Of a stretch of 64,000 nucleotides of DNA, positions 1,252-34,661 are shown piece after piece. The position numbers and the translations under genes were made by a program. Below the pieces are notes generated by a model. That model had not been told where the DNA came from and ran no database searches. It worked only from the letters and a program-made list of their open reading frames with translations. Source of the stretch: Collinsella sp. An2 (GTDB lineage Bacteria; Actinomycetota; Coriobacteriia; Coriobacteriales; Coriobacteriaceae). Positions within the stretch are counted from its first letter, which is position 1; each line of letters opens with the position of its first letter. The stretch spans positions 62,001 to 126,000 of the forward strand of contig NZ_NFJW01000005.1 in assembly GCF_002160065.1 (NCBI RefSeq), given 5' to 3'.

Positions 1252-2742
1252 TTAATACGTCTTGCGCGCTTCGGCGCCCTTGGCACGGACCTCGGAAACG
1301 AAGACCACGTTGGTGGAATAAAGCCCGTCAGGCAGAAGCACCGAGGTGCGGGGATCGCCGACCGTGATGACGGCGATGTCACCCTCCTTGATAAGCTCAG
1401 TCTGCTCGGCCACCTTCACGGCGTTCTCCACCGTCGGCGTGACCCAGTCGCTCTGGAAGTCGTCGAGCACAGGGTCGACGCCCCAGTACACCGTCATGCG
1501 GCGCTGCGCCCAATCGTTGTGCGTGACCGCCTGAATGGGCAGCGACGGGCGGAAGTTGGAGACGAGCCGCGCCGAGCGTCCCGAGGAGGTCGGCGTGAGA
1601 ATCGCTCGCGCACCTACGCTGTAGGCGGTGGTCACCGCGGCAAGGCCGACGGCGTTGTTGATTACGTTCGAGCCCTTCTCGTTGGTGTGGATGTCGAGGC
1701 GGGCGTGCTCGGGCATGATCGCCTCGGCGATGAGCGCCACGTTTGCCATCATCTGGACCGCCTTGAGCGGGTACTTGCCAGCGGCCGTCTCTCCGGAGAG
1801 CATCGTGGCGTCCGTACCGTCCGCAATGGCGTTGGCCACGTCGGTGACCTCGGCGCGCGTGGGCCGGGGGTTGCGAATCATGGAGTCGAGCATCTGGGTG
1901 GCGGTGATCACGGGCTTGTAGGCCGCGTTGCACTTGGAGATGATCTCCTTCTGGATCGTGGGGCACACCTCGGGCGCCACCTCGACGCCCAGGTCGCCGC
2001 GGGCGACCATGATGCCGTCGGAGGGCTCGAGGATGTCATCGAAGTGGTAGACGGCGGTGGCGCACTCGATCTTGGGGAAGATGAGGACGTGCTCCCCGCC
2101 GTTCTCGTCGCAGAGCTTGCGGATCTCACGCACACCATCGGCGTCGCGGATGAAGGAGGCCGCGATGAAGTCGATGCCTTCCTTCAGGCCAAAGAGGATG
2201 TCGGCGCGGTCCTGCTCGGTGATGGCGGGCAGCGACAGGTGCGCGTTGGGCACGTTCACGCCCTTCTTCTCGCCCAGCTCGCCGCCGTTTTGCACGGTGC
2301 AGTAGATGTCCTGGCCGTCAATGGAGTCGACCGTGAGGCCGATGAGGCCGTCGTCGATGAGGATGGTGCCGCCCACGGCGACCTCGCGCGGGAGGGCAAG
2401 ATGGTCGAGGTAGAAGTGCTCGGCGGTGCCCAGCAGGTCCTCGGAGGTCTCTGCCGCCGTAACGGTGACCTTCTCGCCTGTGACGAGCGTGACTTTGGCG
2501 TGGTCCTTGAGCAGGCCCGTACGGATCTCGGGACCCTTGGTGTCGAGCAGGATGCCCACTGGGATTCCTAGCTCGCGGGAGATGCGCTTCACGCGCTCCA
2601 TGCGCGTGTGATGCTCCTCGTGGCTGCCATGGCTGAAGTTGAAGCGAGCGACGTTCATGCCCGCAAGGATCATCTGTCGAAGCGTCTCCTCGTCGTCGCA
2701 GGCGGGACCCATGGTGCAAACGATCTTTGTGCGCTTGTTCAT
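1252..2742 (-). CDS. pyk: Pyruvate kinase, copy 2
   Basis: A complete 496-residue pyruvate kinase, final ATP-yielding step of glycolysis. Visible motifs are NFSHGSHEEHH (residues 35-45, K+ and substrate site), LLDTKGPEIRTG (65-76), catalytic Lys224 in FPKIECATAV, MVARGDLGVEVAPE, and TATQMLDSMIRNPRPTRAEVTDVANAIADGTDA, followed by an A and C domain of normal size. GGGAGAAGG precedes the ATG. It lies directly upstream of the second pyruvate kinase and downstream of the ketose-bisphosphate aldolase gene, all on the same strand. Separate regulation by an allosteric effector or growth phase is possible for the two copies but nothing in the sequence proves it. Confidence 0.97.
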   Translation of the reverse strand: MNKRTKIVCTMGPACDDEETLRQMILAGMNVARFNFSHGSHEEHHTRMERVKRISRELGIPVGILLDTKGPEIRTGLLKDHAKVTLVTGEKVTVTAAETSEDLLGTAEHFYLDHLALPREVAVGGTILIDDGLIGLTVDSIDGQDIYCTVQNGGELGEKKGVNVPNAHLSLPAITEQDRADILFGLKEGIDFIAASFIRDADGVREIRKLCDENGGEHVLIFPKIECATAVYHFDDILEPSDGIMVARGDLGVEVAPEVCPTIQKEIISKCNAAYKPVITATQMLDSMIRNPRPTRAEVTDVANAIADGTDATMLSGETAAGKYPLKAVQMMANVALIAEAIMPEHARLDIHTNEKGSNVINNAVGLAAVTTAYSVGARAILTPTSSGRSARLVSNFRPSLPIQAVTHNDWAQRRMTVYWGVDPVLDDFQSDWVTPTVENAVKVAEQTELIKEGDIAVITVGDPRTSVLLPDGLYSTNVVFVSEVRAKGAEARKTY

Positions 2743-16286: not shown

Positions 16287-16979
16287 TTACTCCTCGTCGT
16301 CGGAATCGTCGGAAGCGGCCTTGCGCTCGCGACGCTTGGGAGAATCCAACTTGAAACGCTTGACGAGAGACTCGTAGATCTCGCTCGAACGCACCTTGAG
16401 ATAGCTGCCCTTGCCGTTCTCGGCATCGAAGTGCAGGCGCGCCGCAAGCTCCTCGGCGACCTCGCCCGGAATCTTGCCCAGGGCGTACTCGTGCAGCGAA
16501 CCCAGCATGTCGCGGTATTCCAGGTCGCCGTGGTAGCACTGAATTGCCTCGTCAAGGATGGGCCAGACCTTCTTGGCCCGCGAGCGATCGGTGGCTCCCC
16601 ACAGGCACAGGAAGCGGAACGCCGAAAGCCTGAGCGTCGAGGAGAGCTCGTCGAACAGGGCAGCCTCGGCGCCCTCGAAGGCTCCGCCGACTTCCTTGGC
16701 GTGCTCAGGCACCAGAAGCGTCAGCGCGTCGAGCACCTCCCAGCGGGTCTGGGCCTCGGGGCGGTAGAGCGCGTCCATCAGCTCGTCGATATACGGCACG
16801 AGCATCTCGGGCTCGCGATGGGCAACGAGGCCCACCACGCGTGCGGCAAACTGGCGCTTGCGCCGGCTCGAGCTTGCCAGGTCTTCGACGAGCACGCCCA
16901 GAGCGCTCCCGTCGGACTCGATTTGAGCGAGCTGTTCGGCCTCTTCGGCACTCAGCTCCTGTTCGTTGGAATCAGCCAT
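16287..16979 (-). CDS. HEAT-repeat-like protein of unknown function
   Basis: A 230-residue soluble alpha-helical protein. After an acidic start, repeated helical units such as ASSSRRKRQFAARVVGLVA, MLVPYIDELMDALYRPEAQ and RWEVLDALTLLVPEHAKEV resemble HEAT repeats. The end is basic then acidic (PKRRERKAASDDSDDEE). I do not recognise a specific family. AGAGGGG precedes the ATG. It is tightly coupled to the downstream isocitrate dehydrogenase gene and 19 bp downstream of a small membrane protein gene. Confidence 0.8.
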   Translation of the reverse strand: MADSNEQELSAEEAEQLAQIESDGSALGVLVEDLASSSRRKRQFAARVVGLVAHREPEMLVPYIDELMDALYRPEAQTRWEVLDALTLLVPEHAKEVGGAFEGAEAALFDELSSTLRLSAFRFLCLWGATDRSRAKKVWPILDEAIQCYHGDLEYRDMLGSLHEYALGKIPGEVAEELAARLHFDAENGKGSYLKVRSSEIYESLVKRFKLDSPKRRERKAASDDSDDEE

Positions 16980-16998: not shown

Positions 16999-17463
16999 CT
17001 ATCGTTTCCGCCCGCCCTTGCGCGACGGCGCCGAATCCTCAGCCGCCGTCGCGGTGGCGGACTTGGAGTTGTCCGAGACCGACATAAGGTCGGGCGCGGG
17101 CGCTCCCTCGCGCTTGCGGCGCCGACGGTCCTCGCCGCCGCCGCGCTGCGTCGCCTCACGCTGCTTACGGTTCACGTTGAACACGCGGTCGTGCACGGCC
17201 CACGGGCCGACGGACTCGCCGAATCCCATCTTGAGGCCCGCGATACCGCCGCCGAGCGCGCCCAGCGGCACGGCGTAGAGCAGCGGCACCCACGAGATCA
17301 GCGCCGTCACCACAACGCAGCCCACGATGGCCACGATGTTGTACTTCCAGTAGTCCCGCGTGGTGACCGCGCGCTGCCCCGCCCAGCTGCCCACCGTGAA
17401 ACCCATGTAGATGCTGAAGATGAGCAGGACGATGAAGCAGATGATGAAGGCCTGATCGTTCAT
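16999..17463 (-). CDS. Small membrane protein with basic tail
   Basis: 154 residues. Transmembrane segments are visible at about 6-26 (FIICFIVLLIFSIYMGFTVG) and 42-62 (NIVAIVGCVVVTALISWVPL), with a third weaker one at 62-80 rich in Gly. The last 55 residues are basic and low-complexity (NRKQREATQRGGGEDRRRRK). No family recognised. It lies 3 bp downstream of the dehydrogenase stop codon and belongs to the same minus-strand run. Confidence 0.75.
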   Translation of the reverse strand: MNDQAFIICFIVLLIFSIYMGFTVGSWAGQRAVTTRDYWKYNIVAIVGCVVVTALISWVPLLYAVPLGALGGGIAGLKMGFGESVGPWAVHDRVFNVNRKQREATQRGGGEDRRRRKREGAPAPDLMSVSDNSKSATATAAEDSAPSRKGGRKR

Positions 17464-17466
17464 GCG

Positions 17467-18591
17467 TTACTCCCCGTGGTGGTGGCAGCAGCCCTCGCCG
17501 TGGGCGTGGCCCTCGCCGTGGTGCCCATGGCAGCACTCGTGGTCGCCGTCCTCGTGCCCATGCCCGTGGCAGCACTCGTGGTCGTCGCCGTGGTCGTGGT
17601 GATGACCGCAACCGCAGCCGTCGTCGCCATGGTCGTGGCCGCAACCGCACTCGTCGTCATGCTCGTGCTGCGAGGTGTAGAGCGACCAGTCGAGACCGGC
17701 TGCCACAGCCTCGGACTCCTCCTGGTACAGCAGGGTGATGGCCTGCGTTCCCAGGCGGCCGCCGCCGATAGCGTCGAGCATGTCATACAGGGCAAAGGCG
17801 GTGTCGGCGCCGGGAAGGGCGATCTCGCGCTCCTCGGCCTCCTGAAGGGCCAGCCCCAGGTCCTTGATGAAGTGCTGCACCATGAAGCCGGGCTTCCAGT
17901 CGCCCACGAGCGCCTTAGGCGCCAAGGTGTCCATGGCCCCCGAGGCGCCAGTGCCGGCCATGATCATCTCGCGGGTCTGCTCGAGGTCGAGTCCCTCCTG
18001 CTGCGCAAGCGAGAGCGCGTCCGCCATGCCCACCATGCTGGCGGCAAGCGCGACCTGGTTGGCAAGCTTTGCGGCCTGTCCCTTGCCGGCGCCACCGAAG
18101 CAGCAGATACGGCTCGAGAAGGTCTCCAGCAGGGCGCGCACCGGCTCGATGTCGTGCTCGGTCGCGCCGGCGATGGCTGTCAGGGTGCCTGCGATGGCTC
18201 CGGACTCGCCGCCGGTCACGGGGCAGTCAAAGGCCATACGGCCCTCGACCTGCGCGGCGCCGGCGATGTCGCGCGCCAGCGACGGGGAGCTCGTGGTGAG
18301 GTCGATGAGGACGGCACCGGGCTTCGAGGAGCTCAGCAGGCCGTCGCCGGCAAGGTAGATCTCCTCGACGTCTTCGGGGAATCCCACCATGGTGAAGATG
18401 ACGTCGGCTTCGCGGGCAGCATCCGCCACGCTCGGCGCCCACACGGCGCCGCGCTCCACCAGGCCATCAGCCTTCGCCTTGGTGCGGTTGTACACGGTCA
18501 GCGGATATCCGGCGTCCAGGATGTGGCCCGCGATGGGTGCACCCATGATCCCGGTGCCGATGAACGCGACGCGCTGCTTGGTATCTGCCAT
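17467..18591 (-). CDS. 3-hydroxyisobutyrate/6-phosphogluconate-type dehydrogenase with His/Cys-rich tail
   Basis: NAD(P)-dependent beta-hydroxyacid dehydrogenase. The N-terminal Rossmann motif is FIGTGIMGAPIAGHIL; DCPVTGGESGAIAGTL is the substrate-binding loop and GKGQAAKLANQ carries the catalytic Lys, as in GarR/MmsB enzymes. The catalytic part ends near residue 308, the normal length of about 290-300. The last 66 residues contain 21 His, 10 Cys and many Asp/Glu in patterns like HECCHGHGHEDGDHECCHGH, like the metal-storage tails of nickel chaperones. The ATG at 18591 has AAAGGAAAG. Substrate unknown. Confidence 0.88.
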   Translation of the reverse strand: MADTKQRVAFIGTGIMGAPIAGHILDAGYPLTVYNRTKAKADGLVERGAVWAPSVADAAREADVIFTMVGFPEDVEEIYLAGDGLLSSSKPGAVLIDLTTSSPSLARDIAGAAQVEGRMAFDCPVTGGESGAIAGTLTAIAGATEHDIEPVRALLETFSSRICCFGGAGKGQAAKLANQVALAASMVGMADALSLAQQEGLDLEQTREMIMAGTGASGAMDTLAPKALVGDWKPGFMVQHFIKDLGLALQEAEEREIALPGADTAFALYDMLDAIGGGRLGTQAITLLYQEESEAVAAGLDWSLYTSQHEHDDECGCGHDHGDDGCGCGHHHDHGDDHECCHGHGHEDGDHECCHGHHGEGHAHGEGCCHHHGE

Positions 18592-18646
18592 ATCTCTTTC
18601 CTTTCGCAATCCATTGTGAAGCATGGTTGTTTCTATTTATGTTCAT

Positions 18647-18737
18647 GATGGCCCCTCTGGGGACGGGGCCGTGCCGGGCAATCGCAAGCAACGCCGCCCG
18701 GACGGCTCGAGACGATCCCGTCCCGAGAGGGGCCACC
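18647..18737. repeat. Inverted repeat between degV and the dehydrogenase gene
   Basis: GATGGCCCCTCTGGGGACGGG (18647-18667) pairs with CCCGTCCCGAGAGGGGCCACC (18717-18737), 19 of 21 positions, with an inner GCCGTGCCGGGC/GCCCGGACGGC stem. It follows the degV stop codon (minus strand) by 13 bp and is a plausible transcription stop for degV, without a T run. Confidence 0.65.
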
Positions 18738-18749
18738 ACGGTATATGCG

Positions 18750-19700
18750 CTAGCTGCGGACCTTCTTGGCAATGCGGTCCGTCAGCGACACCTTTTCGGC
18801 GCGGTCGCGTCCCCAGAAAATGAGTGCGACCATGCCCGGCCCGACGTGCGCGCCGATGGTGGGGCCCACCGCGCCGCGGATGATGGTCACGTCCGAGCAG
18901 CCATCCTCCTTGCGTACGGCGGCCTCGACCCAGTCGCCGTCCTTCTCGGCGTCGGCCGTGACGATGGTGATGGGAAGCGTGGGGTCGTGAACGTAGTTTT
19001 CCCTAAACGCCTTGATGAGGGACTTGAGCGCCTTCTTGCGGCCGCGGTTCACGCCGGTAAGCGTAAGCGAGCCGGCCAGGTCGAACGAGAGGCTTGGCTT
19101 GATGTCGAGCTTGCTGGAAAGCTGCGCCGCAGCAGGCGGGATGCGGCCGCCCGCGGCCAGCGAGTCCAGGCTGTCCAAGGTGAAATAGCCATGCACGCAG
19201 GTCTTGGCCTGGTTGGCCCACTCCACAAGCTGCGCGGCGGTAAGGCCGGCAGAGCGCTGACGCACCGCCTCAAGCGCAAGGAGCTCGCCGCAGGCGCAGG
19301 GCAGCGCGTTGTCCACGACATAGAGCTCGAAATCGGGATGCTCGGCGCGCACCTGATCGGCCGCCTGACATGCGAAGTCGTAACTCGCCGAGAGGGCAGA
19401 CGTGAAGCACAGGTACACCGTGGGCGTCCCCTCCTCGGCGCACTGGGTGAAAAACTCCAGGTAGCGGCCGAGCGAGATGGCAGAGGTGGAGGCGTGCACA
19501 CCAGAGCGGATCTTGTCGTAGAACTGCGCGGGCGTGATGGATGTCCAAATGTCGTCGGTATGCTCGACGCCGTCGAGCATATAGGGGAAGCCCAGGATGT
19601 CCACGTCGAGCGTGGCCGCAATCTCGGGCGTGAGGTCGGCACAGGTGTCGACCACGATGCGGTAGCGGTTCGCGTGTCCGGCGGATGCGGCAGCAGTCAT
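18750..19700 (-). CDS. DegV family fatty-acid-binding protein
   Basis: 316 residues. YRIVVDTCADLTPEIA at the N-terminus and LCFTSALSASYDFACQAA, then GYFTLDSLDSLAAGGRIP and GPTIGAHVGPGMVALIFWG are typical of DegV/FakB proteins, which bind a fatty acid and present it to the FakA kinase. The Thr-rich fatty-acid loop region is present. No fakA is nearby. ATG at 19700 with AAAGGG upstream. Confidence 0.92.
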   Translation of the reverse strand: MTAAASAGHANRYRIVVDTCADLTPEIAATLDVDILGFPYMLDGVEHTDDIWTSITPAQFYDKIRSGVHASTSAISLGRYLEFFTQCAEEGTPTVYLCFTSALSASYDFACQAADQVRAEHPDFELYVVDNALPCACGELLALEAVRQRSAGLTAAQLVEWANQAKTCVHGYFTLDSLDSLAAGGRIPPAAAQLSSKLDIKPSLSFDLAGSLTLTGVNRGRKKALKSLIKAFRENYVHDPTLPITIVTADAEKDGDWVEAAVRKEDGCSDVTIIRGAVGPTIGAHVGPGMVALIFWGRDRAEKVSLTDRIAKKVRS

Positions 19701-19783: not shown

Positions 19784-20368
19784 TTACTCGTCAAGCGTCT
19801 CGATCTTCGGCTTGATGATGCCATATCCACCATTCTTACGGTGATACACCACATTGATGAGGCCGGTCGTGGCGTTCTCGAACACGTAGAAATCGTGGCC
19901 CAGAAGATCGGTCTGGATAAGCGCCTGCTCTTCGGTCATAGGCGTGATGTCAATGATCTTCTCGCGTACGAGCAGGTCGTCTTCCTCTTCGGGCAGCAGC
20001 AGGTCGGCGAGGTCCTCGACGTGCTCGGCCGGCATGACCTCGGCTGCCGACGCACCCTGCTGGCGGTTATCGACCACTTTCGTCTTGTACTTGCGCAGCT
20101 GCCGCGTGACCTTGTCGGCGGCCTGGTCGATGGCCGCATACATATCGCCGCCGTGCTCGGCCACGCGAATCACCGAGCCACGGACGCGCACCGTGACCTC
20201 GACGATTGCCGGCTGGGGATTCGAGGGGTTTTTCTCATAGCGCAATACGACATCGACCGTCATGGGCTCGATGTCGAAGACCTTGAGGGCCGCACCGATC
20301 TTCTCATCGACATGCGCACGCAGAGCATCGGTTACCGTGGTCTTACGTCCCGATACCGTGATATCCAT
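19784..20368 (-). CDS. hpf: Ribosome hibernation promoting factor, long form
   Basis: Dimerises 70S ribosomes in stationary phase. 194 residues: N-terminal S30AE/YfiA domain (MDITVSGRKTTVTDALRAHV to QLRKYKTKV) and C-terminal long-HPF domain (VREKIIDITPMTEEQALIQTD, HDFYVFENATTGLINVVYHRKNGGYG) that mediates dimerisation. ATG at 20368 with GGAG 6 nt upstream; a TTG four codons earlier is less likely. It is monocistronic by position. Confidence 0.96.
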   Translation of the reverse strand: MDITVSGRKTTVTDALRAHVDEKIGAALKVFDIEPMTVDVVLRYEKNPSNPQPAIVEVTVRVRGSVIRVAEHGGDMYAAIDQAADKVTRQLRKYKTKVVDNRQQGASAAEVMPAEHVEDLADLLLPEEEDDLLVREKIIDITPMTEEQALIQTDLLGHDFYVFENATTGLINVVYHRKNGGYGIIKPKIETLDE

Positions 20369-20537
20369 ACGTGGCTCCAATCTATCCGGGGACCTTACGT
20401 ATGCTTGTTGTACCCATTCGCGCCACCATCGAGCGCGCAGGCGCGCATCTCCCGTTAGCGACCCAATCCCAGCCGAACGCCGAATCCTCGACGCCGGTGG
20501 GGCGCGAGTTGGCTATACGGCCGTGACGGGCGGGATG

Positions 20538-33442: not shown

Positions 33443-34126
33443 CTAGCTGCGGGCGGCCTCGATGCGGTCGACGAGCCACGTGACCCACTCGTCCATGCCG
33501 TCCCCCTTGGTGGCGCTTACGCTAAAGCGCGGTGCCTGAGGATTGAGGTCGTCAAGCGTGCCGTTATATGCCTTCTGGTCGAAGTCGAACGCAGGCGCAA
33601 CGTCGATCTTGTTCAGCAGGATCGCGCCGGCATGCTGGAAGATGCCCGGATACTTGACCGGCTTGTCGTCGCCTTCGGGCACCGAGAGGATCATCACGCT
33701 GAGGTTCTCGCCCAGATCAAAATCCACGGGGCATACGAGGTTGCCCACGTTCTCGATAAAGATGACGTCGATGGCATCGAGCCCCACCCCGGCGTCCAGC
33801 GCATCGACGGCCTCGCGAATCATGTTTCCCTCGAGATGGCAGAGCCCGCCGGTGTTGATCTGCACGGCGGGGATGCCGGCCTCTTTCATGGTCACGGCAT
33901 CTACATCGGACGCGATGTCGCCCTCGATGACCGCGCAGCGCAGCCCATGGCCGTCGCGCAGCCGCTCGTTGGTCGCAAGAATCGTGGAGGTCTTTCCCGA
34001 GCCGGGGCTGGAAAGCACGTTGATCACAAAGGTATGGCTGCCGCGGAACCGGTCACGCAGCTCGGCGGCCAGGCGGTCGTTGCGCGAGAGGATAGGCGTG
34101 GAAATGTCGACGGTACGCTCGGACAT
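33443..34126 (-). CDS. hypB: Hydrogenase nickel incorporation GTPase HypB
   Basis: GTP-dependent nickel delivery to [NiFe]-hydrogenase. 227 residues: P-loop NVLSSPGSGKTS (residues 37-46), VIEGDIASDVDA, the metal-site motif QINTGGLCHLEGNM (Cys and His), FIENVGNLVCPVDFDLGE, and LNKIDVAPAFDFD. No N-terminal His-rich nickel store and no CxxC high-affinity site, so it is a short HypB. The ATG at 34126 follows AAGGAGG. It is 181 bp downstream of hypA; other hyp genes and hydrogenase subunits are not in the window. Confidence 0.95.
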   Translation of the reverse strand: MSERTVDISTPILSRNDRLAAELRDRFRGSHTFVINVLSSPGSGKTSTILATNERLRDGHGLRCAVIEGDIASDVDAVTMKEAGIPAVQINTGGLCHLEGNMIREAVDALDAGVGLDAIDVIFIENVGNLVCPVDFDLGENLSVMILSVPEGDDKPVKYPGIFQHAGAILLNKIDVAPAFDFDQKAYNGTLDDLNPQAPRFSVSATKGDGMDEWVTWLVDRIEAARS

Positions 34127-34307: not shown

Positions 34308-34661
34308 TTAGTCGGGCGTCTCGATTTCGACCGAGACGATATCGAGATCACGGCCGTGCACGAGGCGCGTGTCTCCACTGCCACAGGCGGGACAGCGCAG
34401 ATGGCGCACGTCGTGGTCGAACTCGTTGCCGCATGCCCGGCAAACGCTGTGCGGATGGACCTCCTCGACCGTCAGCTCGCAGGCCGCGGTCTGCGGATCC
34501 TCCTCGCGCAGAACCTCCCACGCAAAGTCCAACGACTCACGCACGACCTCGGTCATGTCCCCGATGCGCAGCGTCACGCCCACGGCGCGCGTCGCGCCCT
34601 CGTGCTGCACGGTGGCGCGCACGGTGGAAAGCACGCCGTCCACGATGCCCATCTCGTGCAT
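34308..34661 (-). CDS. hypA: Hydrogenase nickel metallochaperone HypA
   Basis: 117 residues. MHEMGI begins with the conserved nickel-binding His2; zinc loop CRACGNE...CPACGSG; DLDIVSVEIE at the end. Starts 7 bp after the tatC stop codon, linking it to the Tat genes. HypA works with HypB to insert nickel. Confidence 0.95.
   Translation of the reverse strand: MHEMGIVDGVLSTVRATVQHEGATRAVGVTLRIGDMTEVVRESLDFAWEVLREEDPQTAACELTVEEVHPHSVCRACGNEFDHDVRHLRCPACGSGDTRLVHGRDLDIVSVEIETPD

Follow-up and report, generated by a model that had tools for sequence, protein, structure and literature searches.

Introduction

Metal-binding tails have been described on several bacterial chaperones and metal-delivery proteins. 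The tail of E. coli SlyD binds up to seven Ni(II) ions per protein, H. pylori SlyD binds both nickel and zinc, and the His-rich stretches of HypB and UreE serve as a nickel store (PMC7055735). In H. pylori HspA, a GroES protein and housekeeping co-chaperonin, nickel is stored by a His/Cys extension, which also gives protection against the metal, and the protein has been proposed to be both store and detoxifier (PMC3856676). Mycobacterial GroEL1 carries a metal-binding His tail, which tolerates the loss of single His residues (PMC10170517).

Here, we analyse a gene from Collinsella sp. An2, located in a 64,000-nucleotide stretch of contig NZ_NFJW01000005.1 (hereafter, the window), whose product combines a dehydrogenase core with a C-terminal tail rich in His and Cys.

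Results

The gene and its conserved neighbours are listed in Table 1. The open reading frame spans 17467–18624 on the reverse strand, and we set the start at the internal ATG because homologues begin there (MAD..) and a GGAAAGAG ribosome-binding site precedes it; the stop codon occupies 17467–17469.

Table 1 Features of the dehydrogenase locus and of the hydrogenase accessory genes in the window.
Feature	Coordinates	Strand	Remarks
Whole dehydrogenase gene	17467..18591	-	374 aa; ATG start at 18591 preceded by GGAAAGAG
Catalytic core, beta-hydroxyacid dehydrogenase	17737..18591	-	NAD_binding_2 and NAD_binding_11; GTGIMG and NRT cofactor motifs; DCPVTGG; Lys175
Order-specific C-terminal extension	17668..17736	-	Residues 286–308 (TLLYQEE..AGLDWSLYTSQ); helical, joins core to tail
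His/Cys/acidic/Gly tail	17470..17667	-	Residues 309–374, 66 aa; predicted disordered
Predicted membrane protein	16999..17463	-	154 aa with a basic C-terminus; follows the dehydrogenase stop after 3 bp (translationally coupled layout)
Repeat-like protein, conserved neighbour	16287..16979	-	230 aa; no Pfam match
DegV-family protein, conserved upstream neighbour	18750..19700	-	
Ribosome hibernation factor-like protein (HPF, named from sequence), conserved upstream neighbour	19784..20380	-	Synteny
HypB without His-rich region	33443..34126	-	
HypA	34308..34661	-	

The core places the protein in the beta-hydroxyacid dehydrogenase superfamily, with NAD_binding_2 (PF03446, residues 7–164, 152.3 bits against a gathering score of 21) followed by NAD_binding_11 (PF14833, residues 169–286, 95 bits against a gathering score of 30), and with a catalytic Lys in the G-x-G-x3-K-x2-N-Q motif. 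This residue, Lys175, does not vary among 40 homologues, and its counterpart in structure 3w6z is the Lys that was mutated there (K170M). By both sequence and fold, the best match is the archaeal NADP-dependent L-serine 3-dehydrogenase of Pyrobaculum calidifontis (3w6u/3w6z), the closest solved relative, to which the dehydrogenase is 41% identical in a structural alignment; the four best structures gave TM-scores of 0.89–0.93, normalised by target length. By analogy, the NRT motif that follows the second strand points to an enzyme that is probably NADP-dependent. An earlier note on this DNA had called it a 3-hydroxyisobutyrate dehydrogenase (HIBADH), a name that is unsupported, as is tartronate semialdehyde reductase, because the curated equivalog cut-offs were missed by wide margins (185.8 against 291.6 bits for TIGR01692 and 209.1 against 340.75 bits for TIGR01505, respectively). 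There was also no FKBP match in the dehydrogenase, which sets it outside the SlyD metallochaperone family. The core is modelled by AlphaFold with pLDDT values mostly above 95; it is intact, but the note's description of a normal catalytic length missed a short order-specific extension of ~23 residues (~residues 286–308), helical, which separates the tail from the point where the family usually ends (~residue 285). Extension and tail are both absent from the 20 other actinobacterial relatives that we compared.

Translation of 17470–17667 on the reverse strand confirmed the 66-residue tail with 21 His and 10 Cys that had been noted before; the other residues are 16 Gly, 10 Asp, 8 Glu and 1 Ala, with no Lys or Arg. 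Assuming a proteome-like His plus Cys frequency of 3.5%, finding 31 such residues among 66 has a binomial probability of ~1e-27. Residues G, H, C, D and E make up 97% of the tail, compared with 88% of the E. coli SlyD tail, and the tail is predicted to be disordered (AlphaFold pLDDT ~38). Nearly all Cys residues of the tails occur in CC or CxC pairs: 98.7% have another Cys no more than two residues away, whereas shuffling the tails lowers this share to 46%. With its C-terminal position, predicted disorder, richness in His, Cys, Asp and Glu, and CC/CxC pairs, the dehydrogenase tail would thus qualify as SlyD-type. A SlyD tail that was donated or replaced was rejected as its source, since no SlyD-like FKBP examined in the order is tailed and the dehydrogenase tail has no sequence relative elsewhere in the source genome or in the PDB.

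Homologues for comparison came from 24 genomes within the same family, from other members of the order and from 80 named loci. Among 98 classified homologues, 79 carry a tail with both His and Cys, six a His-only tail (for example L098, ...DDGHHHHHHH), three a tail with mainly Cys, and ten none, two of these ten being the class-level outgroup. The 79 His/Cys tails average 56 residues, with 14.7 His, 8 Cys, 15 Asp/Glu and 0.6 Lys/Arg. Every Coriobacteriaceae homologue examined (Collinsella, Enorma, Ca. Limicola and Ca. Coprousia) is tailed, that of genome G004 being the sole degraded example among them (3 His, 5 Cys), and the tail is also found in most Atopobiaceae (Olsenella, Atopobium, Lancefieldella, Thermophilibacter and Tractidigestivibacter). 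Ligand residues stay while the sequence and length of the tail drift, His-only versions such as HHHHHHH included, a pattern that, judged from the sequences, would be expected of loose metal binding. A quick maximum-likelihood tree showed at least 14 changes among the four tail states, with losses in several lineages; the best explanation is that an ancestor of this Coriobacteriales lineage added the tail, which was then lost a few times.

The frame of the tail is the real one, because its GC3 agrees with that of the enzyme (0.87 and 0.86, respectively) and most substitutions among 12 related species are synonymous. A frameshift or assembly error as the origin of the tail was ruled out because dozens of independent genomes share the tail. 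The danger foreseen in the earlier note, that close relatives might lack the tail and a frameshift might account for it, did not materialise, given an order-wide tail with mainly synonymous substitutions.

Inside the tail, at 17499–17601, lies an imperfect tandem repeat with a 39-bp (13-residue) unit, which suggests that slippage of the repeat lengthens and shortens the tail while its ligands are preserved by selection. Slippage did, then, shape the tail, and one might go further and regard it as no more than a GC-rich repeat that expanded neutrally into low-complexity sequence, with His and Cys arising by chance of frame. We find this hardly credible. In 12 species of the Collinsella aerofaciens group, pN/pS is 0.066 for the tail and 0.046 for the core, no Cys position has changed and His has changed in two cells only, both times to Arg; across these species, purifying selection acts on the tail with almost the same strength as on the enzyme, and this substitution pattern refutes a chance or neutral repeat. 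The same composition, moreover, occurs in two families despite different repeat units, and there is no similar stretch elsewhere in the genome.

The dehydrogenase gene occupies the same locus, downstream of degV, in 80 loci wherever the contig reaches, and the order HPF, DegV, dehydrogenase, (154-aa membrane protein), 230-aa repeat-like protein is common to Coriobacteriaceae and Atopobiaceae. Intergenic gaps are short, and in L032, L033, L035 and L043 the dehydrogenase begins ~20–40 bp past degV. This neighbourhood, conserved in two families and with short gaps, points to vertical inheritance among housekeeping genes and not to a metal operon. Inspection by eye of 23 upstream regions revealed no metal-responsive operator, leaving metal regulation without support. 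Between degV and the dehydrogenase, the window has a long imperfect inverted repeat (18640–18740, GGCCCCTCTCGGGACGGG...CCCCGTCCCCAGAGGGGCC), in a gap that gave no Rfam match; GGGACGGG-type repeats are found in the same gap of L034 and L036. In many Atopobiaceae (L070, L067, L084, L098), and not in Coriobacteriaceae, a gene for an NYN-domain-like nuclease, named from sequence, is inserted in the cluster downstream of the dehydrogenase. Elsewhere in the window, two adjacent and near-identical pyruvate-kinase-like genes (1–1135 and 1252–2742, reverse strand; N-termini inspected) represent a tandem duplication.

The 154-aa membrane protein, which has no Pfam or NCBIfam match, remains coupled with the dehydrogenase throughout Coriobacteriaceae and in some of the Atopobiaceae. 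Its basic C-terminal stretch, together with the 18 Asp/Glu and the lack of Lys/Arg in the tail, would suit a tail that holds no metal in vivo and acts either as a pH-sensitive acidic/His polyelectrolyte or as an anchor to a partner such as this translationally coupled neighbour. We consider such a role very improbable, however, as it leaves the Cys pairs, the most conserved feature, without a function, and as the tailless homologue L067 still has the membrane protein.

Locally, nickel looks like the natural ligand, because the source genome encodes HypA and HypB, a partial match to a hydrogenase large subunit, urease, UreE with a His-rich tail, and LarC. The earlier note had stated that the HypB of the window lacks its His-rich part, and indeed no His-rich stretch is present in it. 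The tail could accordingly be viewed as a nickel reservoir for the maturation of [NiFe]-hydrogenase, urease or lactate racemase, replacing the His regions missing from HypB and SlyD, and all Coriobacteriaceae tested have both HypB and the tail. Outside this family, however, there is no positive link: 24 tailed rows are without HypB and 16 with it, while five of eight tailless homologues come from HypB genomes (odds ratio 0.4, p 0.27). Furthermore, neither HypB, nor a NiFe-hydrogenase large subunit (PF00374), nor urease, nor LarA occurs in 18 tailed genomes, of which 15 have His/Cys tails; the metagenome assemblies among these may be incomplete, but two genomes (G028 and G036) are 99% complete. 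UreE and LarC of the source genome also have His-rich stretches of their own. Co-occurrence with these four markers therefore does not identify the tail as an accessory to nickel enzymes, a special nickel/hydrogenase link is unsupported, and we regard a nickel reservoir as improbable. Since the presence of the tail is independent of the nickel enzymes tested, a more general metal fits better.

Other His-rich proteins of the source genome were sought by DNA pattern alone, a search of low sensitivity that missed the dehydrogenase tail too. The UreE with the His-rich C-terminal tail (L161, G000:C1:188500-191500) adjoins the urease cluster. LarC, a nickel-pincer cofactor protein, is encoded by an ORF of 524 aa (L162, G000:C19:4000-7500) with a very long (His-Glu)n/His-rich insert; LarA (PF09861) was not found in this genome at E 1e-10. 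In a permease of the arsenic-efflux family (L165, G000:C46:43000-46000), a loop rich in His and Cys (CEHDHCGCDDDAEGHGHAHG...CCSHGHAHDHHGG) separates the two membrane halves.

A different lead comes from CbiM, a component of cobalt/nickel importers, which is inversely associated with the tail (Fisher p 6e-6): it was present in all eight tailless genomes (loci L082, L083, L066, L067, L078, L105, L110 and L028), four of six with His-only tails, seven of 54 with His/Cys tails and none of three with Cys-biased tails. Independent pairs that differ run in the inverse direction, although the test comprises 3–6 such pairs, only three of them well supported, and several markers were tried. All tailless genomes are large (2.7–3.2 Mb, p 1e-4), and among the 12 genomes of at least 2.7 Mb, CbiM is found in neither of the two with Cys-bearing tails and in all ten of the rest, which is suggestive but too few. 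Because the independent pairs are few, the markers several, and genome size and phylogeny confounded with the association, we treat it as a lead only. It would agree with a reading in which this order of gut Actinomycetota, with no metal tails on its SlyD or HypB, carries a main cytosolic transition-metal buffer on the dehydrogenase; that buffer would be dispensable or harmful in lineages where CbiM imports cobalt or nickel, and its role would lie in cobalt or zinc buffering and not in nickel delivery. We hold this possibility to be unlikely. ZnuA-type importers are absent from most genomes examined and hence uninformative as a zinc marker, so no independent sign for zinc was obtained.

Discussion

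Our analysis gives about an even chance that the protein, a dehydrogenase with an intact core and a SlyD-type tail predicted to be disordered, is a constitutive cytosolic transition-metal buffer or store. From its sequence, the tail probably binds metal, and a metal store is plausible because of the SlyD-like composition, the selection and conservation of the tail, and the tailless state of the FKBPs of the order and the HypB of the window. What the earlier note read as a real, selected and probably metal-binding tail thus stands, without the nickel/hydrogenase link and the HIBADH name. A constitutively made housekeeping dehydrogenase would be the carrier of the buffer, the His residues and Cys pairs of the tail would hold several ions per subunit, and these ions would be released or taken up as the supply of the cell shifts, with catalysis and metal holding being largely separate functions. 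H. pylori HspA employs its own His/Cys extension in this manner. A point against this explanation is that several lineages have lost the tail and manage without it. As the SlyD-like FKBPs of the order are tailless, a buffering role is not obviously filled by them, and the dehydrogenase may have taken over what SlyD tails do elsewhere. Zinc is our first, unproven guess for the buffered metal, since no nickel enzyme is required; nickel, cobalt or copper are possible.

A serious rival is a regulatory role on the enzyme itself, in which the tail would be a metal- or thiol-redox-sensitive arm, and metal binding or Cys oxidation would cross-link or occlude subunits and thereby switch dehydrogenase activity. 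The tail is carried by an intact enzyme and not by a dedicated storage protein, its Cys pairs could be redox-active, and binding of nickel to SlyD reversibly inhibits the isomerase activity of that protein (PMC7055735). Yet the core is still conserved in tailless homologues, and free drift in the length and order of the tail is more in keeping with a bulk property than with a precise switch; we therefore consider a regulatory arm rather unlikely, though it deserves to be taken seriously.

If the tail does bind metal, then in Collinsella, an abundant genus of the human gut, and in related bacteria a metal buffer resides on an enzyme that annotations list under ordinary metabolism, and because tailless relatives exist in nature, the role of the tail can be tested directly. 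The dehydrogenase should, in addition, bind strongly to nickel resin, so that it might be pulled directly out of native lysates.

As an enzyme, the protein shares fold, domains, NRT motif and catalytic Lys with other beta-hydroxyacid dehydrogenases (L-serine 3-dehydrogenase, tartronate semialdehyde reductase, HIBADH and GLYR1), and extension and tail distinguish it from its actinobacterial relatives. Its tail resembles that of SlyD from E. coli and H. pylori, likewise a predicted or known disordered C-terminal stretch of His, Cys, Asp, Glu and Gly with CC and CGC motifs; SlyD, however, carries it on an FKBP, whereas here the carrier is a dehydrogenase, the SlyD-like FKBPs of the order are without it, and its distribution does not follow nickel enzymes. 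With HspA, the dehydrogenase has in common a lineage-specific His/Cys extension at the C-terminus of a housekeeping protein, but HspA is a co-chaperonin under NikR control, while the dehydrogenase is a metabolic enzyme in a conserved housekeeping cluster where no such control was seen. GroEL1 similarly joins a housekeeping fold to a His-bearing C-terminal tail, although the His-rich fragment of this chaperonin, studied with Cu(II), has no Cys pairs and is shorter. The stretches of HypB and UreE, in contrast to the Cys-paired dehydrogenase tail, are His-dominated and belong to nickel-delivery proteins. We found no description of a SlyD- or HspA-type tail on a metabolic dehydrogenase in the open-access literature; the kind of device is known from chaperones and metal-delivery proteins, and, as far as we could find, its carrier and its conservation across an order are new.
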